The position numbers and the translations under genes were made by a program. The notes beneath the pieces are model-generated. The model had not been told where the DNA came from. It was given only the letters and a program-made list of their open reading frames with translations, and did no database searches. This document shows positions 46,295-64,000 of a stretch of 64,000 nt of DNA, one piece after another. The stretch lies in assembly GCA_019925095.2 (NCBI GenBank), contig JAHHIN020000030.1, positions 4,013,001 to 4,077,000 on the forward strand, in the 5' to 3' direction. Position 1 is the stretch's first letter, and each line of letters starts with the position of its first letter. This DNA is from Dendrolimus kikuchii (lineage: Eukaryota; Arthropoda; Insecta; Lepidoptera; Lasiocampidae).

Positions 46295-46312
46295 ATCGTT
46301 CTATGTATAAAG

Positions 46313-46616
46313 GTAAGTCGAATTACTCCACCACGTTCCATGCCCGTGCAATGAGGCTTCAACTCCTGGCCTGATGTTCCGGGCCCGGGCTTCCCCGGGT
46401 AAGTTATATCACACTCGTGGACACGGAAAACGCCACGAATTGACTCCCTACGTCACTCCGGTTAAGGTAGTGCCGTTGACTCCCAGTGCGCATCGTGGCA
46501 CGGCTTTCCGTCGAATGAATGTTTGCACACCCATCCAAGTACTGACCGCACCAAGCGACGCTTAACATTTATGATCGACTCGATAATGCACGTTCCACTG
46601 TGCCAACTGGCCGCTC
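46313..46616 (-). repeat. 5S-rRNA-derived SINE with 18-bp target duplication
   Basis: On the minus strand the head contains TGTTAAGCGTCGC, then GGTCAGTACTTGGATGGGTG, which are the box A and box C regions of the 5S rRNA internal promoter. It is flanked by ATCGTTCTATGTATAAAG at 46295-46312 and 46617-46634, an exact 18-bp duplication showing target-primed insertion. Only the middle of 5S is kept, so this is not a working rRNA gene. Confidence 0.8.
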
Positions 46617-46634: not shown

Positions 46635-46663
46635 CCTCGACCTAATCTAACCTAACCTAAACC
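46635..46663. repeat. Telomere-type repeats (CCTAA)n, 3' side of the TRAS/SART-like element
   Basis: CTAATCTAACCTAACC and variants lead directly into the poly(T) of the minus-strand element. Confidence 0.7.
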
Positions 46664-46683
46664 TTTTTTTTTTTTTTTTTTTT
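46664..46683 (-). other. Poly(A) tail of the TRAS/SART-like element
   Basis: Twenty T on the plus strand, fused to telomere-type repeats; it marks the 3' end at which target-primed reverse transcription began. Confidence 0.88.
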
Positions 46684-47028
46684 GATAACGCAGGGGGAAT
46701 GTCTTTTCTTGCGACACTCCCTCGGGCCCTGGGGGAGGGTGACCGAGGGGAGTGTGGGACTCCCAGCGGAATGGATCTCCACGCATAACTACCGCCGCGG
46801 GCGGTAGTAGTCGCGAGATCCCGTCCGCCGGACTACCCACTAAACCTAACCTGCGCCTCTTTCCCACGCTTTTACGGGGCGCCACGAGAACTAGAGCGGT
46901 GCTACTACATTCGTGACGCCCCTACGCCTGGCAATCTTCAGGACACCCCGAAGGCAAGGTGCCCTGCTTCATCAACAGGGGGGGAAGTCCGCGGGTACCC
47001 CCGGTCCCCGCGGCCCCCTGTGACGGCA

Positions 47029-50000
47029 CTAAGGGAGGTGGGCTGCGTAGCGACGCCGCCGGCCGCCAGTCCGCCGTCGCCGGATCGGGTCTGCGTACGC
47101 ATCCACCTCCCTGGTCCTCTCCGCGGCCTCCTTCAGGGACATTACCGTCTCGCTGAAGGAGGAGGAGACCGCACTCCATCCGTCCTCGCTCGACAGCATG
47201 GCTTCTACCAACTGCTGGAGCGAGGACACAGGACCGACAATACTTTCTAGCTGATGACGCTGAGGTCCCCAGGCGGCGCACTCCACCAGCGTGTGATACG
47301 CTGTATCGTAGGGTGCGCCGCACTCTGCACATTCTGGCGTCGGTTCACGCCCCGCTGTCTGATGCAGATACTTACCGAAGCACCCATGCCCGGTAAGTAT
47401 CTGCGTCAGCCTGTACGTTAGGGTCCCGTACTTCCTCGAGACCCAACGAGACAGGTGGGGGCGGACCGCCGACACCGTCTCAGCTCCTGCTTCTGGGGTC
47501 CTCAGGTCATCAGCCCAATCTTGGATCAGGGCCTCGGTCGCCAAGACCCTGATCCTTCTCACAACTGCCGGACACGGCCTCTCTCGTCTCTCCCTGGTGT
47601 CCTGCCGGTAGCGGTGCACTGCCGCGAGCACCTCCGCCTGGCGCTCCCAGGGCGCATCACTCGCGAGCAGTGTCGCCGCTGTCCACGACACTGTCCGGTA
47701 CCCCCGGATGGCCCGCACCGCCAGGACCCTCTGAGAACGTCTCAGATGGGTCCTGTTCTTGCGGTGAAGAGCATCGACCCATACGGGGGCGCCGTACAGC
47801 GCCATGCTCCGCAGGACACCAGTATACAACTTTCTACAGACCGTGCCCGGCCCTCCCACATTGGGTAAGAGTCTGGCCAGGGCGGCAGCGGCACCTAGCA
47901 ATCTCGGGGCCAGCTGGGTGAAGTGGGCCCCGAAATTCCATTTTGCATCTAGGACAAGGCCCAGGTACTTCATCTGGGCCTTTACCGCTACCGCCACTCC
48001 CTGGACGGCGACATGCGTGCCCCGAGGCGGTTGTCTACGACGTCCGTAGAACATGAGGGCCTCCGTCTTCTCCGGGGAGACCCTCAAGCCCAAACGCCGC
48101 ACTCTCTCGACTACCAACGCCGTCGCGGCGTTGGCTAGTTCTACGGACTCGTCGTAGGTTCCGCCTCGGGCCGTGATGAGGGTGTCGTCTGCATAGCAGA
48201 TCACCCCCATCCCGGGCAAGACTGGCTCGCGGAGGAGCCAGTCATAACCAATGTTCCACAGGATCGGGCCCAGCACCGAACCCTGTGGAACACCGCACAC
48301 GACACGTCGCCTACCAGAAATCTGGCCAAAGCCGCCCTCCCAGAGGATGAACCTGTCTTGGAGGTACGCCTTCAACAGTCTTACAAGGTAAAGAGGCACT
48401 CCATGAGACCGGAGTGCCTCTAAAATGGTTTCGAAAGGTAGACTGTTGAAGGCATTTTGGATATCCAAAGATACCACCAAGACAGACTCCTCTATGCTCT
48501 CCGCCTCTCTCGTGAGGCTCCTCAGCGCGAACAGGGCGTCCAGAGTGGATCGCCCTGACCTAAATCCGTACTGAGCCTCCGAGAGTCCAGGCCCACCAGA
48601 ATCAAGGTGCTGGACGAGGCGGCTCGCCAAGATCTTCTCGAATACTTTTGCCACCTCGTCCAACAGCACGATGGGCCTGTAGGCGGAGGGATCTTCGGGA
48701 GGGCGGCCCTCTTTAGGGATGAGGCACAGCCGGCCCTCTTTCCACTGCTTCGGGAACTCACCTGTCCTGATGCAGGCGTCAAAGAGTTCCCGAAGCTGGC
48801 CGCCTAGATGTTTGGCGGCCAGGAAGAGGACCCGGCCTGGGACCCCGTCCGGTCCCGGTGCCGTTTTCCGGCCCCGGAGTCTATCCAGGGCCATTTCCAT
48901 TTCTTCCTCGGAGACTGGGGGAGGATCAGTCTCCGAGGGTACAATCCGAGGAGGACACATCCTAGGAGGAGCAAAGGCTCCCGGGTCCGGGAAGAGTCCA
49001 TCTATGATTCTGTTCAGGACCCCGTCTGGCAGGGACTCCGTAACCGGGGTGGAGCAGGCGCGTATTTTCTTGCGCGCCACCCGGTACGGACGTCCCCAGG
49101 GGTCCGCATCCAGTGTGGATAGGATTTCTTCCCGAGCCCGGGTCTTTGCCTGACAAATAGCCACCTGAAGAGCCTTTTTGGCAACCCTATACTCCTCCAA
49201 GCGATGTTCCTCCTCACCTCTGTCCGGAGGATGCCGACGCCGGCAGTTCTTCAGAGATCGGCGAGCCCGAAGGGCTGCCTCCCTCAGACTCCCGATCTCT
49301 GCGGTCCACCAGTAAACCGCTGGTTTCCGCCGACGTCGACGCGACCGTGGCATCGAGGCATCGCAGACCCTCGTAAGGGTTCTGCGCATGCCCTCCGCCA
49401 GATCCTCCGGACAGGTGTTACTCTCTGGGTTGGTCCAGCCCTGGACGACGGCCATTTCCTCAGCCAGCTCGGGATCGAGCCGGCTGATGGCCCATCGAGG
49501 GAACTGGCCGTGACTGCGTGGGGGGTTTGACCCTGTTCTGTTAGGAGGAGGGGAGACCTCGAACCTTATGTAGAGGTGGTCCGACAGAGTCTCCACCTCC
49601 TCCTCCACTTTCCAATTCATCACCCTGCGTGCGATCGCATGGGTGGCAAACGACAGATCTACGACGGAGCCACCCCGCGCTCGCACGCAGGTGTGGACCG
49701 AACCTCGGTTCAAAAGGGTCAAACCACTTTGAAATGCCCACGTTTCCACAGCCAGTCCCCTCAATTCGGTGACAGTGTTTCCCCAGGAGCGGGATTTGGC
49801 GTTGAAGTCGCCGAGTACGAACGTCGCCCTCGGCGACTGTCTGCCCACGGCGGCCCTGACAGAATCCAAGAAACGCTCGAATTCTGCCAGGGGTCGGTTG
49901 GGGGAAAAGTACACACCTATGAAGGTGTGCTCCCCCCACCCTGCCACCGCGTAACCCCGCCCCCGCTCGATCTCGATGAGCGGGGTGCCAGCGCCCGAAC

Positions 50001-50184
50001 TGGCCACCACTGCCACCGTGTCGTCCAGGTCCCCAACCCAGTTGCTCTGGGCGGGGACGTAATACGGCTCCGATATTACGGCCAGACCAACCTCCCACTC
50101 CGCCATGGACTGCAGGAGTAAATCCTGGGCCCCGGCGGAGTGGTTCACGTTTCCTTGCAGGAGTCTTATATGTCGTCCGGGCAT
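47029..50184 (-). CDS. ORF2: endonuclease and reverse transcriptase of the TRAS/SART-like element
   Basis: ATG at 50184; 1051 codons, open throughout. The N-terminal third is an apurinic-type endonuclease: LLQGNVNHS at the start, VLGDFNAKS near residue 123 and LSDHLYIRF near 203. Reverse transcriptase follows, with GRKTAPGPDG, AYRPIVLLD, YGFRSGRSTLDA, VSLDIQNAF, GVPQGSVLGP and the catalytic YADD at residues 664-667. The C-terminus has a CCHC-like group (PECAECGAPYDTAYHTLVEC) that is usual in R1-clade ORF2. The enzyme nicks the target and uses the free end to prime cDNA synthesis from the element RNA in the nucleus. The ATG lies one base after the ORF1 stop (TAA-T-ATG), so translation is probably coupled to termination of ORF1. 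It is much more GC-rich than its surroundings, as expected for a recent mobile insertion. Confidence 0.93.
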   Translation of the reverse strand: MPGRHIRLLQGNVNHSAGAQDLLLQSMAEWEVGLAVISEPYYVPAQSNWVGDLDDTVAVVASSGAGTPLIEIERGRGYAVAGWGEHTFIGVYFSPNRPLAEFERFLDSVRAAVGRQSPRATFVLGDFNAKSRSWGNTVTELRGLAVETWAFQSGLTLLNRGSVHTCVRARGGSVVDLSFATHAIARRVMNWKVEEEVETLSDHLYIRFEVSPPPNRTGSNPPRSHGQFPRWAISRLDPELAEEMAVVQGWTNPESNTCPEDLAEGMRRTLTRVCDASMPRSRRRRRKPAVYWWTAEIGSLREAALRARRSLKNCRRRHPPDRGEEEHRLEEYRVAKKALQVAICQAKTRAREEILSTLDADPWGRPYRVARKKIRACSTPVTESLPDGVLNRIIDGLFPDPGAFAPPRMCPPRIVPSETDPPPVSEEEMEMALDRLRGRKTAPGPDGVPGRVLFLAAKHLGGQLRELFDACIRTGEFPKQWKEGRLCLIPKEGRPPEDPSAYRPIVLLDEVAKVFEKILASRLVQHLDSGGPGLSEAQYGFRSGRSTLDALFALRSLTREAESIEESVLVVSLDIQNAFNSLPFETILEALRSHGVPLYLVRLLKAYLQDRFILWEGGFGQISGRRRVVCGVPQGSVLGPILWNIGYDWLLREPVLPGMGVICYADDTLITARGGTYDESVELANAATALVVERVRRLGLRVSPEKTEALMFYGRRRQPPRGTHVAVQGVAVAVKAQMKYLGLVLDAKWNFGAHFTQLAPRLLGAAAALARLLPNVGGPGTVCRKLYTGVLRSMALYGAPVWVDALHRKNRTHLRRSQRVLAVRAIRGYRTVSWTAATLLASDAPWERQAEVLAAVHRYRQDTRERRERPCPAVVRRIRVLATEALIQDWADDLRTPEAGAETVSAVRPHLSRWVSRKYGTLTYRLTQILTGHGCFGKYLHQTAGREPTPECAECGAPYDTAYHTLVECAAWGPQRHQLESIVGPVSSLQQLVEAMLSSEDGWSAVSSSFSETVMSLKEAAERTREVDAYADPIRRRRTGGRRRRYAAHLP

Positions 50185-50185
50185 A

Positions 50186-52381
50186 TTAGTGGGACATACT
50201 AGACTCCTGCTGGTTCCTTGCTATCCCGACGTTCGCCGGGGGGACAAACTTGCCTCTCACATGCGGAGGGAGGCAGCCCCTCGACAGTGAGACGTGGTTT
50301 GCGTCGAGACCCGACTCGGCGCAAACCACACAGTGAGCGTTAGGCTCGGAGCATTGAGCGACCCTGTGTCCGCTTTTGCCGCAGCGGAAACACAGGGCCG
50401 ACCTGTCAACTCGCCCATCCGGGCACATTACTGTGATGTGGCCCGTGTAGAGGCACCGCATACAACGTATGGGTCGCCTCTCACGGGCCGAGACCTCCGC
50501 TGAGCTGAAGCCCACGCAAATGTGCTTCAGCTCAGTCAGCATTTTCGCGACCGGGATGGGGCATTGGACGTAGGCAGCGCCCATCCCCCCCGGTCCCACA
50601 CCGATACCGCCAGATTTGACGTGCTCGCGAGGGCAGCCCCCTGCGCGAGCGATGGCCTCCTCTAATAACCAAGGCGTGACCGAGTCGTCAAGCCCTGTGA
50701 CACGAATGTCTCCTTTCTTCACAGGCCTGGCGACCTCGGCCACACCTGTCAACACTGCACTGAGGGCCAAAGCCAACCGGTCTGCCTTCTCGATGCCCTC
50801 CGGCCCTGGTGGCAGCTCCAAGAGCCGGGCATCGTTGGCTGTCCGGTTGATCTTAAGGCCCTCCTTAAGGCCCATCGCTTGCAGGTCCACTACCTTCGCG
50901 GCCTGCTCAAAAACCTGGCGGTATGTTACCCCGTTCCTAGCGGCCTCGGGCAGCAGCGTCACCATAACCGCTGCTGCCTTGGCCTCAACCAACGGGGCCG
51001 GCTTCCTAGGAGGAGGTCTCCTCACCGGCGCGTAACTCTGCTGGGGGGCGGAGTATTGAGGTGCGGGGGTCAGGGCAGGGTATCCCCCTGCTCTTCTTGC
51101 GCCCCGTCCTCTCCCTCTGCCCCTCCTACCACCTCCCACCACTGTCCACTCACCCTGGTCCTCCTGGGTGGGGTAGGGGGCAGTGGGGGGGATCGACCAC
51201 ATTGGGGGGGCCGGAGCCACCCCCTGTCTTCTGGGGGCCCTCTGAACGCCGGAGGGGCCCGGTTTCGGCGATGGGCGCGGAGGGCCCACCACTTTGGCAT
51301 ACGACGGGGGTACCGGAGTCGCCACCGTCGAGATTGGCTCACACTCCATCGCCAGGGGCTCCGTCATATCGTCGGAGACCCTGGGAGGAGCAGCCGTGGG
51401 CGGCGTGGCACCCGAGGTCCCGGGTGCCGCCTTGCTTCTTTTATCCGCGGCGAGCGGCGGACGGATGACCGGGGGGGGGAGTAGGCGGTCCTCAAGGCCC
51501 GCGAAGCGGGCGTTGATGAACTCCCCCATCGACAGGATTATGGAGCGTTTCAGCTCCTCCACGTCGAATGGGGGAGATTCGGTGGTGGAACTCCCCCCCT
51601 TTTTCTGGGGCGGGGGCCCTCCATCGCCAGCCGCGGCCTCCTTGGCCGCAGCTTCCCTGGCCGCGGCCTCCTTGGTCGCGGCTTTTCCTTTGTCGCTGGC
51701 CTCCTTGGCCGCGGCCTTCTCCTTTTCCGCGGACTCCTGGGCCGCGGTTTTCATTTCTTCGAACTCCCTACGGTACGACCGAATCTCGGCCCGTAGGGAG
51801 TCCACCTCTCGCTTCAACTTTAAATTGTCGAGGCTCAACTTTCTATTTTCGGCGTCGACGGACCTCTTGGAGAGACTCTCCGTCACCTCCATGAGGGCCG
51901 CCGCCGCCTCCTTCAACTTCTTGATGTAACCCCCCTTGAGGTTCCCCGAGGTCTGGGCAACGTTATAAATCGCTGCCACATGGACGCCGGCCATGGTGCG
52001 GAGTTCCTCCGCATCCAAGAGGTCGACGTCCGTCTGCCTCGGGTCCATCTCGGGGGGCACATCAGCCGTAACTGCAGGCGCAGAGGCCTTCCCCTTCTTC
52101 TTACACTTCTGACGAAGATCAGAGACAAAGGCCTCTGCCTGAGCCTCGACGTTCGCAGTCTCTTCTCGGGATAGCGTCGTTCCGACGCTAACTCCCCTAT
52201 GACGGGCCCCCAGGAGCACCTTGGCGCGCCGGGTCCCTGGCCTTTGGGTGTCCTCCTGGGTCACCAGCTTTCTACCCGACTCGTCCGAGTCGGATTCAGC
52301 ATTCTCACCGCGGGAGTGTGCGTTAGTCCGTTTCCGGACGTCGCACACTCCCGAGGCGTGACTCTGTGCCGAGTCGGCCAT
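50186..52381 (-). CDS. ORF1: gag-like RNA-binding protein of the TRAS/SART-like element
   Basis: The frame extends upstream to 52450 but only with a TTG there; the first ATG is at 52381 (MADSAQSH), giving 731 codons. Features in order: charged N-terminus with a basic KCKKKGKAS patch, a coiled-coil-like heptad region rich in Lys, Glu and Ala, including an EAAAKEAA-type low-complexity run, a proline/arginine-rich stretch with RRGRGRGRGARR, then a conserved gag core and three CCHC knuckles (CMRCLYTGHITVMC, CFRCGKSGHRVAQC, CVVCAESGLDANHVSLSRGC) near residues 640-700. The protein would coat the element RNA and bring it to telomeres. It ends in TAA one base before ORF2. Confidence 0.9.
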   Translation of the reverse strand: MADSAQSHASGVCDVRKRTNAHSRGENAESDSDESGRKLVTQEDTQRPGTRRAKVLLGARHRGVSVGTTLSREETANVEAQAEAFVSDLRQKCKKKGKASAPAVTADVPPEMDPRQTDVDLLDAEELRTMAGVHVAAIYNVAQTSGNLKGGYIKKLKEAAAALMEVTESLSKRSVDAENRKLSLDNLKLKREVDSLRAEIRSYRREFEEMKTAAQESAEKEKAAAKEASDKGKAATKEAAAREAAAKEAAAGDGGPPPQKKGGSSTTESPPFDVEELKRSIILSMGEFINARFAGLEDRLLPPPVIRPPLAADKRSKAAPGTSGATPPTAAPPRVSDDMTEPLAMECEPISTVATPVPPSYAKVVGPPRPSPKPGPSGVQRAPRRQGVAPAPPMWSIPPTAPYPTQEDQGEWTVVGGGRRGRGRGRGARRAGGYPALTPAPQYSAPQQSYAPVRRPPPRKPAPLVEAKAAAVMVTLLPEAARNGVTYRQVFEQAAKVVDLQAMGLKEGLKINRTANDARLLELPPGPEGIEKADRLALALSAVLTGVAEVARPVKKGDIRVTGLDDSVTPWLLEEAIARAGGCPREHVKSGGIGVGPGGMGAAYVQCPIPVAKMLTELKHICVGFSSAEVSARERRPIRCMRCLYTGHITVMCPDGRVDRSALCFRCGKSGHRVAQCSEPNAHCVVCAESGLDANHVSLSRGCLPPHVRGKFVPPANVGIARNQQESSMSH

Positions 52382-52662
52382 TAGAAGAGGGCCCCCCCCA
52401 TGGGGATGGAGAGGGGAGGTCCAAAACGAGCAACAAATCCAATCACGCAAGCAGAATCAAAATCCAGTGGGAAAAAGCCAAGTAATCAGTCAAAGAAGAA
52501 ATCAAACCAAAACAGACAAATCCGGGTCAACAAGTAGGCAAGAATGTCAGAAATCCGATAAACTAGCCAAGTCGTCAACAGTAATCATAAAAAACACCAT
52601 CCAGAATACTTTCGAAAAACCTTCGAAAAAAAACAAAAATGTTGTTCCTCTGATTGTAAGAA
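52382..52662 (-). other. 5' leader of the TRAS/SART-like element
   Basis: A-rich in plus-strand reading and without a supported gene. It bridges ORF1 and the 268-bp units. Confidence 0.5.
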
Positions 52663-53466
52663 AAATGTTGTTCGAATTTATCCACCACTTATCGCACCCG
52701 TGCAATGAGGCTTCAGCTCCTGGCACAGTTGACCGGGCCCGGGCTTCCCCGGGTAAGCTATATCACACTCGTGGGTACGATTAGCCACAAATTCATCTTT
52801 CTAAAGCTAACCGACACACAGTTTTCCAATGTCCGGGCTTCCCCCATCCATGTACTGACTGCGGCCGGTGTCGCTTAACATTCGTGATCGGCTAGAGCGC
52901 GGCATTCCGCCTGCGTCAACTAGCCGCTCAAAATGTTGTTCGAATTTATCCACCACTTATCGCACCCGTGCAATGAGGCTTCAGCTCCTGGCACAGTTGG
53001 CCGGGCCCGGGCTTCCCCGGGTAAGCTATATCACACTCGTGGGTACGATTAGCCACAAATTCATCTTTCTAAAGCTAACCGACACACAGTTTTTCCAATG
53101 TCAGGGGTCACCCATCCATGTACTGACTGCGGCCGGTGTCGCTTAACATTCGTGATCGGCTAGAGCGCGGCATTCCGCCTGCGTCAACTAGCCACTCAAA
53201 ATGTTGTTCGAATTTATCCACCACTTATCGCACCCGTGCAATGAGGCTTCAGCTCCTGGCACAGTTGGCCGGGCCCGGGCTTCCCCGGGTAAGCTATATC
53301 ACACTCGTGGGTACGATTAGCCACAAATTCATCTTTCTAAAGCTAACCGACACACAGTTTTCCAATGTCCGGGCTTCACCCATCCATGTACTGACTGCGG
53401 CCGGTGTCGCTTAACATTCGTGATCGGCTAGAGCGCGGCATTCCGCCTGCGTCAACTAGCCGCTCA
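52663..53466 (-). repeat. Three exact-length 268-bp tandem units with 5S rRNA internal promoter
   Basis: Units 52663-52930, 52931-53198 and 53199-53466 are each 268 bp and differ at only a few bases. On the minus strand each has GATCACGAATGTTAAGCGAC and CAGTCAGTACATGGATGGGT, matching the 5S rRNA box A to box C region, and ends in GTGGTGGATAAATTCGAAC like the SINE at 46313-46616. The outer unit abuts telomere-type repeats. They may be SINE copies or promoter units of the neighbouring element. Confidence 0.85.
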
Positions 53467-53545
53467 ACCTAACCTAAACCTAACCTAACCTAACCAACCC
53501 AAACCAATCTAAACCAACATAAACCAATCTAAACCAATTCCAGAT
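53467..53545. repeat. Telomere-type repeats, degenerating, 5' side
   Basis: CCTAACCTAAACC-type units pass into variants CCAACCCAAACCAATC and fade into AT-rich DNA. Confidence 0.7.
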
Positions 53546-62560: not shown

Positions 62561-62689
62561 TCTTATCCGCCCTACCTACATTACAACCGACTCTGATATA
62601 TATAATATTGATCACATTTAAATTCTGAATAACATGTATTTTGGTCATAGACATATACATAGTGCACATTATAAAACATTATTGGGGTC

Positions 62690-64000
62690 ATGTCAGAAGC
62701 GTGCTCGTCGCGATCCCCGCTGGCCCAGAGGGCCACAATTCTGACCAGAATTCACCCGCGTGCAGTGCACGATAGGGCGTCCCCCGCAGGCGACGCTCAC
62801 CGATGCGCCCCCGTCGGTGTGAATTCTCGCGCATGCGGCGAAGGGGGCCGCCACCCTTCACGCAGCGCCAAACCTGGCGGGTCGAGAGGAGCAGAGTGTC
62901 GTATAGGCACGTGGAATGTGAGAGGTGGGATGAAAGATAAGATGGACGAAATGATTGATATAATGAATGAGAGAAGCCTGGATGCCTTATGTCTGACAGA
63001 GACAAAGCGGAAGGGGTGCGACGTCGATGACCTCCCCGGTGGCATGCTTGCTCTGTGGTCCGGCGTGGACCTGGACGAGCGTGCGAGTGGGGAGGTAGGC
63101 GTCTTACTCTCATCCCGCTTTGTGTCTGGAGTAAAAGCTTATTGTCTGGTGAACCCGAGACTTCTCTGGGTCCGCCTAAAACTGGGGATCACGCGAGTTT
63201 TTCTGGTCGCAGCTTATGCTCCCGTCAGCTCAGCGGATCCTCAAGAACTCGAGAAGTTTTGGGAGTCTGTGAGAGAAATTCTGGATCTGGCTGAAGGGAA
63301 CGAAAGACTAATTATGTGTGGTGATCTTAATGGCTGGGTGGGGACCAAACGAGACGGCCTTGAGGCTGTCCTTGGACCCTATGGTGACAAGAGAGTGAAC
63401 GATGCTGGTAGGCCAATCATAGACGTATGCATGGAAAGAAACTTGCTTGTGTCGAACACCCTATTCCATCATAAGGATATTCACACGTATACATGGAGAA
63501 TGAATGATCAGAAAAGTATGATTGATCTGATTTTAATTGATAGTCGCCTCCGAAACAGAATAATGGATACAAGAGCCTACAGAGGCCCCACTCTTGAAAC
63601 GGACCACTACCTGGTGATAAGCCGGTTTGTGGGCCTTTTCAAGAAGTGGAGACACTGGCGAGAGCGTACCAATTTCGGGGAGCTTGAAAGAATAAAGTGT
63701 GAAAAATTGGAAGATGTTAGTGTAAGGAGTATGTATGCGCGCCTAGTCGAAGAAAGGCTTGCAAAAGCGGACTTCTCCGACTTAGATGTGGATAATGACT
63801 GGGATAGTATGAAAGAAAGTATAGTGGAAAGCGCAAAAGAAGCATGTGGATGCGCGAAGAGGCACATAACAACGAAAGGTGATGAATGGTGGGACGCGGA
63901 TGTTAAATCCAGCGTAGAGAGAAAGAGAAAAGCCTGGCTGGATTATGTTCCTTCTTTGCAACAGAATGACAGTATGAAAGAGATGAAGAAAGAAATTTAT
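62690..64000 (+). CDS. RTE-like LINE: endonuclease part, runs off the window
   Basis: The frame is open from ATG 62690 to the last base, exactly 437 codons, so it is partial at the 3' side. The first 70 residues are a Arg/Ala/Pro-rich segment with no recognised domain. An apurinic-type endonuclease follows: GTWNVRG (73-79), LTETK (102-106), LVAAYAPVSS, CGDLNG with Asp212 and Asn214, a TYTW...SMIDLILID block and ETDHYLV with Asp305-His306. These are the catalytic residues that nick target DNA before reverse transcription. The reverse transcriptase should lie to the right. The order and wording of motifs fit the RTE group, many copies of which are mislabelled as craniofacial development proteins in insect annotations. 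The 5' leader is only about 12 bases from the Repeat A junction, so the copy may be slightly 5'-truncated or naturally short-leadered. Confidence 0.85.
   Translation, partial: MSEACSSRSPLAQRATILTRIHPRAVHDRASPAGDAHRCAPVGVNSRACGEGGRHPSRSAKPGGSRGAECRIGTWNVRGGMKDKMDEMIDIMNERSLDALCLTETKRKGCDVDDLPGGMLALWSGVDLDERASGEVGVLLSSRFVSGVKAYCLVNPRLLWVRLKLGITRVFLVAAYAPVSSADPQELEKFWESVREILDLAEGNERLIMCGDLNGWVGTKRDGLEAVLGPYGDKRVNDAGRPIIDVCMERNLLVSNTLFHHKDIHTYTWRMNDQKSMIDLILIDSRLRNRIMDTRAYRGPTLETDHYLVISRFVGLFKKWRHWRERTNFGELERIKCEKLEDVSVRSMYARLVEERLAKADFSDLDVDNDWDSMKESIVESAKEACGCAKRHITTKGDEWWDADVKSSVERKRKAWLDYVPSLQQNDSMKEMKKEIY

Follow-up and report, generated by a model that had tools for sequence, protein, structure and literature searches.

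Three tandem, near-identical units with a 5S rRNA-like head stand before the coding region of a telomeric retroelement of Dendrolimus kikuchii. This arrangement raises the question of whether the units are inherited with the element, were present at the site before it inserted, or are acquired during insertion itself. We addressed it in the window (the whole stretch of DNA analyzed, 64,000 nucleotides of contig JAHHIN020000030.1) and by searches of the genome, in which loci and contigs carry L and C numbers, respectively. A sequence-only reading of the window had considered the units to be either 5′ promoter monomers of the element or a tandem SINE cluster predating it.

Table 1. Features of the LINE insertion and of the neighboring 5S-headed unit; positions are those of the window.
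Feature	Positions	Strand	Remark
Target-site duplication (TSD), 5′ copy AGGTTTAGGTTAGGTT	53466..53481	-	Equals the 16 nt after the poly(A)
Unit 1, 5S-headed; 4 differences from the commonest genome-wide type	53198..53465	-	Starts at the 5S +1 position
Unit 2; 1 difference from the commonest genome-wide type	52930..53197	-	
Unit 3; 6 differences from the commonest genome-wide type; T5 at end	52661..52929	-	
13-nt filler between unit 3 and partial unit tail	52648..52660	-	Absent from the other junctions listed
Partial unit tail GAACAACATTTTT, interpreted as what is left of an earlier unit	52635..52647	-	
Remaining LINE 5′ UTR, rich in T-runs	52382..52634	-	
ORF1	50186..52381	-	Zinc-knuckle motifs by eye; no Pfam match
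ORF2, APE-type endonuclease and reverse transcriptase	47029..50184	-	
LINE 3′ UTR, GTTATC at end	46684..47028	-	
Poly(A) tract, 20 nt	46664..46683	-	
Target-site duplication, 3′ copy	46649..46664	-	First A common with the poly(A)
Type B unit (second 5S-headed family) between 18-bp direct repeats CTTTATACATAGAACGAT	46312..46616	-	

The element is a 6.8-kb non-LTR retrotransposon on the minus strand, which consists of the units, a 5′ UTR, ORF1, ORF2, a 3′ UTR, and a poly(A) tract (Table 1). Its two reading frames meet at TAATATG. ORF2 matches the Pfam families RVT_1 and Exo_endo_phos_2, and the TRAS1 endonuclease is among its structure matches, so that it carries the APE-type endonuclease and reverse transcriptase (RT) of SART-type telomeric LINEs. 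The closest protein is from Dendrolimus kikuchii (93%), and none of the 120 matches listed is named SART1. The silkworm element SART1Bm is described as inserting between TT and AGG, with its poly(A) joined to AGG (a passage of PMC7265360). The window element occupies such a TT^AGG site with poly(A) joined to AGG, as do L037, L038, L039, and L048; several other copies have GGG in place of AGG. Both 16-nt TSD copies of the window element contain a TTTAGG variant.

Some further observations concern the window copy and its surroundings. Together with L033, this copy looks recombinant, as its 5′ UTR and the start of its ORF1 resemble different copies: The 5′ UTR (52382-52660, minus strand) is about 99-100% like that of L034/L039, whose ORF1 starts are 89-91% alike, and the start of ORF1 (50186-52381, minus strand) is 97-98% like that of L041/L049-L054, whose 5′ UTRs are 78-79% alike. 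A candidate HDV-like (CPEB3-type) ribozyme at 62673-62745 on the plus strand reaches 34.7 bits against a gathering score of 35 and lies shortly upstream of the apparent endonuclease of another LINE, as judged by eye. Antisense within ORF2, a match to the mir-3389 family (48238-48306, plus strand; 48.8 bits, gathering score 75) suggests that this family may derive from a LINE.

Tandem Repeats Finder delimits the units at 52662-53467, with a period of 268, 3.0 copies, and 97% matches; their natural register runs from GAGCGG to the T-run. In ungapped comparison, units 1 and 3 differ at 2 of 268 sites and units 1 and 2 at 10 sites, nine of them within positions 91-104, where unit 2 has a 1-nt deletion and a 1-nt insertion with no net change. 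Repeat finding and pairwise differences thus bear out the earlier description of three near-identical 268-bp units, but the exact equality in length emphasized there is partly coincidence, because the deletion and insertion in unit 2 cancel. The units were also correctly described as oriented with the element, since they share the minus strand with ORF1 and ORF2. Their placement between telomeric repeats and ORF1 holds on the TTAGG side, but a 5′ UTR of about 280 nt separates them from ORF1.

The same reading had assigned a box A to box C block of 5S rRNA to each unit. About 59 nt of the unit align to the genome's own 5S gene (L102) and span the promoter boxes, but an Rfam search of the units gave no 5S match even at E≤10. 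We take the aligned stretch to be box A, IE, and box C. Since TTAAGC sits at +52 in both the unit and the host 5S gene, the first G of the unit corresponds to the 5S +1 position. Compared with 5S sequences of other animals, the unit scores 43 against fruit fly 5S (maximum of 26 in 1000 shuffles) and 25 against frog 5S, which is not above chance (shuffle maximum of 27). The unit possesses, at the 5S register, the 5S-derived head with promoter boxes that characterizes SINE3 elements. At their other end, all units in the window terminate in a T-run. The T-runs at units are mostly T4, compared with T6 after the single 5S gene read, so termination at the units may be incomplete, and read-through could account for some multi-unit RNAs. 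Based on the 5S-like promoter, +1 start, and T-run end, the 268-nt unit is probably a short pol-III-type RNA gene, that is, a SINE-like element with predicted pol III transcription.

The body of the unit gave few further clues. It has no sense match to the 3′ end of the window LINE. Unit nucleotides 14-28 are complementary to the end of the LINE 3′ UTR (about 46686-46702, minus strand), which is a lead at most: 12 of 2000 shuffles were as strong, and the site ranks only 165 of 595 LINE windows. Antisense reading frames across unit joins were unproductive as protein queries, searches of viral contigs gave no match, and searches of genome contigs returned one archaeal contig, which we took as chance.

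A search with the three units yielded at least 60 matches in the D. kikuchii genome. Among 23 non-overlapping array loci (30 fetched), 21 have the LINE 5′ UTR and ORF1 start directly behind the units, which L008 and L017 lack. With this recurrence across the genome, a one-off chimeric insertion was rejected. To avoid a bias toward units, we also searched with the LINE itself, using as query the 5′ UTR and ORF1 with the 13-nt tail remnant and no unit; 40 of 213 candidates were scored, 40 matches were read, and 36 were left after four segmental duplicates had been dropped. Of these LINE-found 5′ ends, 16 carry one to five full units (one in 7 copies, two in 3, three in 2, four in 1, and five in 3), and 20, some of them 5′-truncated, carry none. 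The arrays of L041 and L050, a possibly allelic pair within this set, extend past the sequence examined. Tandem sense units 5′ of a LINE, the layout of L1 monomers, are therefore a recurrent feature of the family. Not all units are complete, and 19 partial ones are listed.

The units also join partners other than an intact copy of this LINE. A search with a single unit gave 104 matches, and among 10 loci examined outside the arrays already read, five precede the LINE 5′ UTR and ORF1 start. L076 (two units) and L078 (one unit) have their units joined to a LINE that is truncated within ORF2, near residue 820 in L076 and near residue 158 in L078. In L073 and L077, a single unit is fused to another LINE at the 3′ end of the latter; in L077, unit and 3′ end lie within one 16-bp TSD, and in L017, this other 3′ end follows an ORF2 that is 66% identical to that of the window LINE. 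One of the 10 loci, L080, is a solo unit (nt 1-244) flanked by a 17-bp TSD, as is typical of SINE3 copies.

A second 5S-headed family, type B, behaves alike. It has 87 matches, and its arrays on C12 and C27 comprise 12 and about 9 units, respectively. Two of six downstream flanks were read as LINE 5′ UTR and ORF1 start, namely L106, whose protein match to ORF1 is 36% and marks a divergent LINE, and L105, assigned by eye only. Type B units also stand on LINEs truncated in ORF1 (L103) or ORF2 (L107), and the flanks of L104 and L109 run into other DNA. In L105, L106, and L107, the join lies behind the T-run, and the upstream flank of L108 is pure TTAGG.

Several features of the surrounding loci may be recorded here. 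The 5′ flanks of L075, L003, L007, and L009 consist of (TTGGG)n tracts as target instead of TTAGG, so that two telomere-type repeats, these tracts and the pure (TTAGG)n of L108, occur in one genome. Contig C47 (69,559 bases) resembles a second version of the end of C32, with three array pairs at a similar offset that differ in unit number; L005/L006, L004/L018, and L041/L050 may accordingly be allelic. In L065, about 46 consecutive T residues separate unit positions 1-261 from the LINE core. Some LINE 3′ UTRs end in GTTATC, lack poly(A), and border directly on truncated units or foreign sequence, on the 5′ side in L005, L006 (where the end is GTTAT), L021, and L043, and on the 3′ side in L009, L026, and L063. 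They look as if LINE RNA 3′ ends without poly(A) could also act as acceptor templates.

Target-site duplications place units and LINE in the same insertion event. In the window, a 16-bp TSD encloses both and lies outside the units, and both were therefore inserted together. The 3′ ends were read in 12 unit-bearing copies, of which seven have a TSD, three have none, and two lack a poly(A) 3′ end; a TSD around units and LINE is thus present in 7 of 10 judgeable copies, in a tally that leaves out the stacked copies L014, L045, L047, and L049, which are not delimitable, and L042, whose examined sequence (L101) stops too early. The direct repeats measure 10-18 bp (window, L035, L036, L040, L008, L076, and L078), and the 10-nt TSD of L076 lies within repeats. 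L007, L043, and the array at C30:4109133 (L098/L099) have no TSD beyond a few nucleotides, and the two copies that lack a poly(A) 3′ end are L009 and L026. Among copies that carry no full unit, L037, L038, L039, L048, and L055 have TSDs of 11-15 nt (one more with the shared A), L070 has one of 6 nt, and L063 lacks a poly(A) 3′ end. Sequences of about 10-12 nt before unit 1, which we had considered as 5′ extensions of the element, turned out to be target sequence where tested. With 7 of 10 judged copies and L077, the genome contains sense fusions inside one TSD, the signature of small-RNA/LINE chimeras, and the earlier view that the units belong to the element's insertion and recur before ORF1 is upheld in many copies.

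The units on different LINE copies come from a shared pool. We collected 109 full units from 39 arrays, or 105 from 35 without segmental duplicates, which represent 37 distinct sequences. One 265-nt sequence accounts for 53 of the 105 and occurs in 27 arrays. Across the array set as a whole (duplicates and L029 left out), LINE cores average 87.7% identity, with a minimum of 81%. Median unit identity, likewise without duplicates and the old array L029, is 99.6% within an array, 99.6% between arrays with LINE cores at least 97% identical, 99.6% at 85-97%, and 98.9% below 85%. Unit identity consequently does not track LINE relatedness. Unit identity is raised by those arrays that had been retrieved through their similarity to the unit (L002-L031 and L072-L081); in the LINE-found set, 11 of 15 arrays contain the commonest sequence, which supplies 18 of the 37 full units. 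In the older array L029, units are 87-96% identical to unit 1.

The joins, by contrast with the unit bodies, are specific to each copy and defined by the ends of the units, being located at a unit's first base and at its T-run. Among 51 pairs of unit-bearing copies with LINE cores at least 97% identical, none has the unit/LINE junction in common, whereas 39 have the downstream 25 nt in common; for LINE-found copies only, the junction is common to 0 of 31 pairs. Among 74 pairs of any copies with cores at least 99% identical, the upstream 25 nt are identical in one (L005/L006, probably allelic) and the downstream 25 nt in 53, with the limit that unit-less copies also enter these pairs and that part of their upstream sequence is target DNA. 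At unit-unit joins, 34 units with identical bodies are followed by T-runs of 2, 3, 4, and 5 nt in 2, 6, 18, and 8 cases, respectively, with the T of the final CAT counted. A near-invariant body with a variable end is as expected of RNA 3′ ends. No extra nucleotide is present at 56 of 76 unit-unit joins; the other 20 contain C, AT, A, GGGTT, ATTAAAAAAA, or others, and many unit-LINE joins also carry extra nucleotides. Since the filler ATTAAAAAAA recurs in L005, L006, and L023, and some pairs have single-base unit variants in common, some joins were inherited or recombined at the DNA level.

From these features, we think it likely that each insertion adds unit RNAs, end to end, to the LINE cDNA, with template jumping as the most plausible route. 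The SART-like LINE would insert by target-primed reverse transcription at TT^AGG, and on reaching the 5′ end of its LINE template, cDNA synthesis would often carry on into a unit RNA, entering it at the oligo-U 3′ end. This RNA would be copied to its first base, and the jump may repeat, giving 1 to 6 head-to-tail units before the LINE (up to about 12 for type B). The units seem not to be inherited but to be drawn anew from a common RNA pool each time the element jumps. Two steps we infer, namely that the donors are pol III transcripts and that RT template jumping is the joining step. As for precedents, the Bombyx mori R2 RT is reported to jump between templates in vitro after non-templated addition, and passages of the same source suggest that such jumping is not physiologically necessary and ascribe human L1 chimeras to RNA pre-ligation (PMC8857657).

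RNA ligation is the main rival to template jumping. It retains the trans origin but places the joining before reverse transcription: Ligation would link the unit RNAs among themselves and to the LINE RNA at its 5′ end, and the fused RNA would then be copied. The joins read are indeed sense and end to end, most unit-unit joins are free of extra nucleotides, pre-ligation is the route given for human L1 chimeras, and ligation or template switching is listed for sense chimeras in a passage of PMC13174262. However, the extra nucleotides at 20 of 76 unit-unit joins and at many unit-LINE joins fit non-templated addition before a jump, and joins to LINEs truncated in ORF2 would require a cleaved RNA with a ligatable end, which makes ligation unlikely in our view.

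A different origin would be inheritance as in mouse L1, where the array would be transcribed and copied with the element and homogenized by recombination or gene conversion. The 5′ UTR of mouse L1 is described as a variable number of tandem sense monomers (PMC9022269), and the tandem sense units before ORF1 in many D. kikuchii copies, the filler common to three of them, and unit-less copies that begin in a unit tail, suggestive of a transcription start there, would agree with this. The earlier proposal of inherited promoter monomers nevertheless fails on several counts: Junctions differ from copy to copy, identical units precede LINEs that average 88% identity, and units stand on truncated LINEs and on another LINE. 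Inspection of the 5′ ends of other copies, the check suggested along with that proposal, found 20 of 36 without a full unit, which refutes a fixed promoter array. Because unit identity is unrelated to LINE kinship, junctions differ, and these copies have no full unit, the arrays are not inherited with the LINE lineage, and we regard this origin as quite improbable. Insertion of the LINE beside a pre-existing tandem SINE cluster, the other origin first proposed, deserves practically no credence: A diverged 5S-headed unit with its own direct repeats does sit 3′ of the element, but the 16-bp TSD outside units and LINE excludes such a cluster for the window copy, and the same arrangement occurs at many other sites.

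What the units contribute to the LINE depends on where its RNA starts. The suggestion that they provide a pol III-type promoter for the whole element was discarded as unlikely, since a T-run closes each unit and eight more (T5, T8, T5, T6, T4, T5, T4, and T4) follow in the 5′ UTR, at which pol III would stop before ORF1. We searched the 75 nt before the LINE core of the 20 unit-less LINE-found copies for unit tails. In eight (L037, L042, L048, L052, L063, L064, L068, and L070), a match that exceeds the 95% shuffle level has its start within unit positions 240-257. L034, L038, and L069 have a weak tail match at or below the shuffle level, L056 and L066 retain other parts of the unit, and L071 has a match just above the shuffle level elsewhere in the unit, in likely target DNA; L033, L039, L044, L054, L055, and L067 have no unit match in these 75 nt. 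Similar tail pieces stand between full units and the LINE core in other copies, and AACAACATTTTGGAG is common to L042, L046, and L047, whose upstream sequences differ. The simplest reading is that transcription would start within the 3′ tail of the last unit and be followed by fresh unit addition; as an alternative, tail starts could mark jumps that were broken off early. Given that some unit-less copies start in a unit tail, the units may supply a putative promoter, and a pol II or TFIIIA-linked role would be compatible with such starts. Under the template-jumping reading, a newly added unit would act as upstream promoter with starts in its 3′ tail, and because starts lie there, the LINE would lose its promoter at each jump and regain it in trans.

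More tentatively, the unit may be a SINE that multiplies mainly as a second template and gives the promoterless cDNA a fresh promoter in trans, with mutual dependence of SINE and LINE. Its pol III RNA would wait at the LINE ribonucleoprotein and be copied after the LINE RNA, often repeatedly, and the SINE would ride on the 5′ end of each new telomeric LINE. If this is true, template jumping answers how LINEs gain 5′ promoter monomers in this system. The genome appears to hold dozens of natural end-to-end template-jumping events with readable junctions, which offer a route for LINEs to gain variable numbers of 5′ promoter-like units and bear on the continued transcription of telomere-targeting elements stacked at chromosome ends. 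In the open-licence literature, as far as its texts were accessible, we found no account of SART-type LINEs that acquire such units in trans, and routine concatemeric addition of promoter-bearing SINE RNA to LINE 5′ ends was not met; the loci point to a 5′-passenger, concatemeric lifestyle of a SINE that we likewise did not meet there.

The individual components are known from the literature, as SINE3 elements, L1 monomers, small-RNA/L1 chimeras, and 5S-promoter TRIMs. Like the window LINE, SART1-type telomeric LINEs (R1 clade, Bombyx mori) have an APE endonuclease, an RT, and a TT/AGG site (PMC7265360), whereas the SART-like LINE of D. kikuchii often has 5′ ends capped by 5S-headed units, and several of its targets are TTGGG-type or mixed repeats. 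The 5S-derived SINEs (SINE3) of Lepidoptera, HaSE3 and PxSE4/PxSE5 (PMC3272025, PMC8010984), resemble the units, in a comparison by description only, in their 5S-derived head with promoter boxes, body of other origin, and TSD-flanked single copies. They differ in that the units mostly form head-to-tail concatemers on LINE 5′ ends and have no 3′ tail in common with the window LINE. Mouse L1 monomers likewise form a variable tandem sense array at a LINE 5′ end (PMC9022269), but those of D. kikuchii are not passed down along the LINE lineage. U6/L1 and other small-RNA/LINE-1 chimeras are similar in that a small RNA is fused in sense upstream of a LINE in one insertion; they are described as occasional (PMC13174262), whereas 16 of 36 LINE 5′ ends in D. 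kikuchii carry units, often several, and the fused RNA is putatively promoter-bearing, with 5S-like boxes. Finally, the Cassandra and Ajax TRIMs are retroelements that have also captured a 5S promoter, but they are LTR elements whose 5S part is copied in cis (PMC10886601), unlike the units of D. kikuchii.
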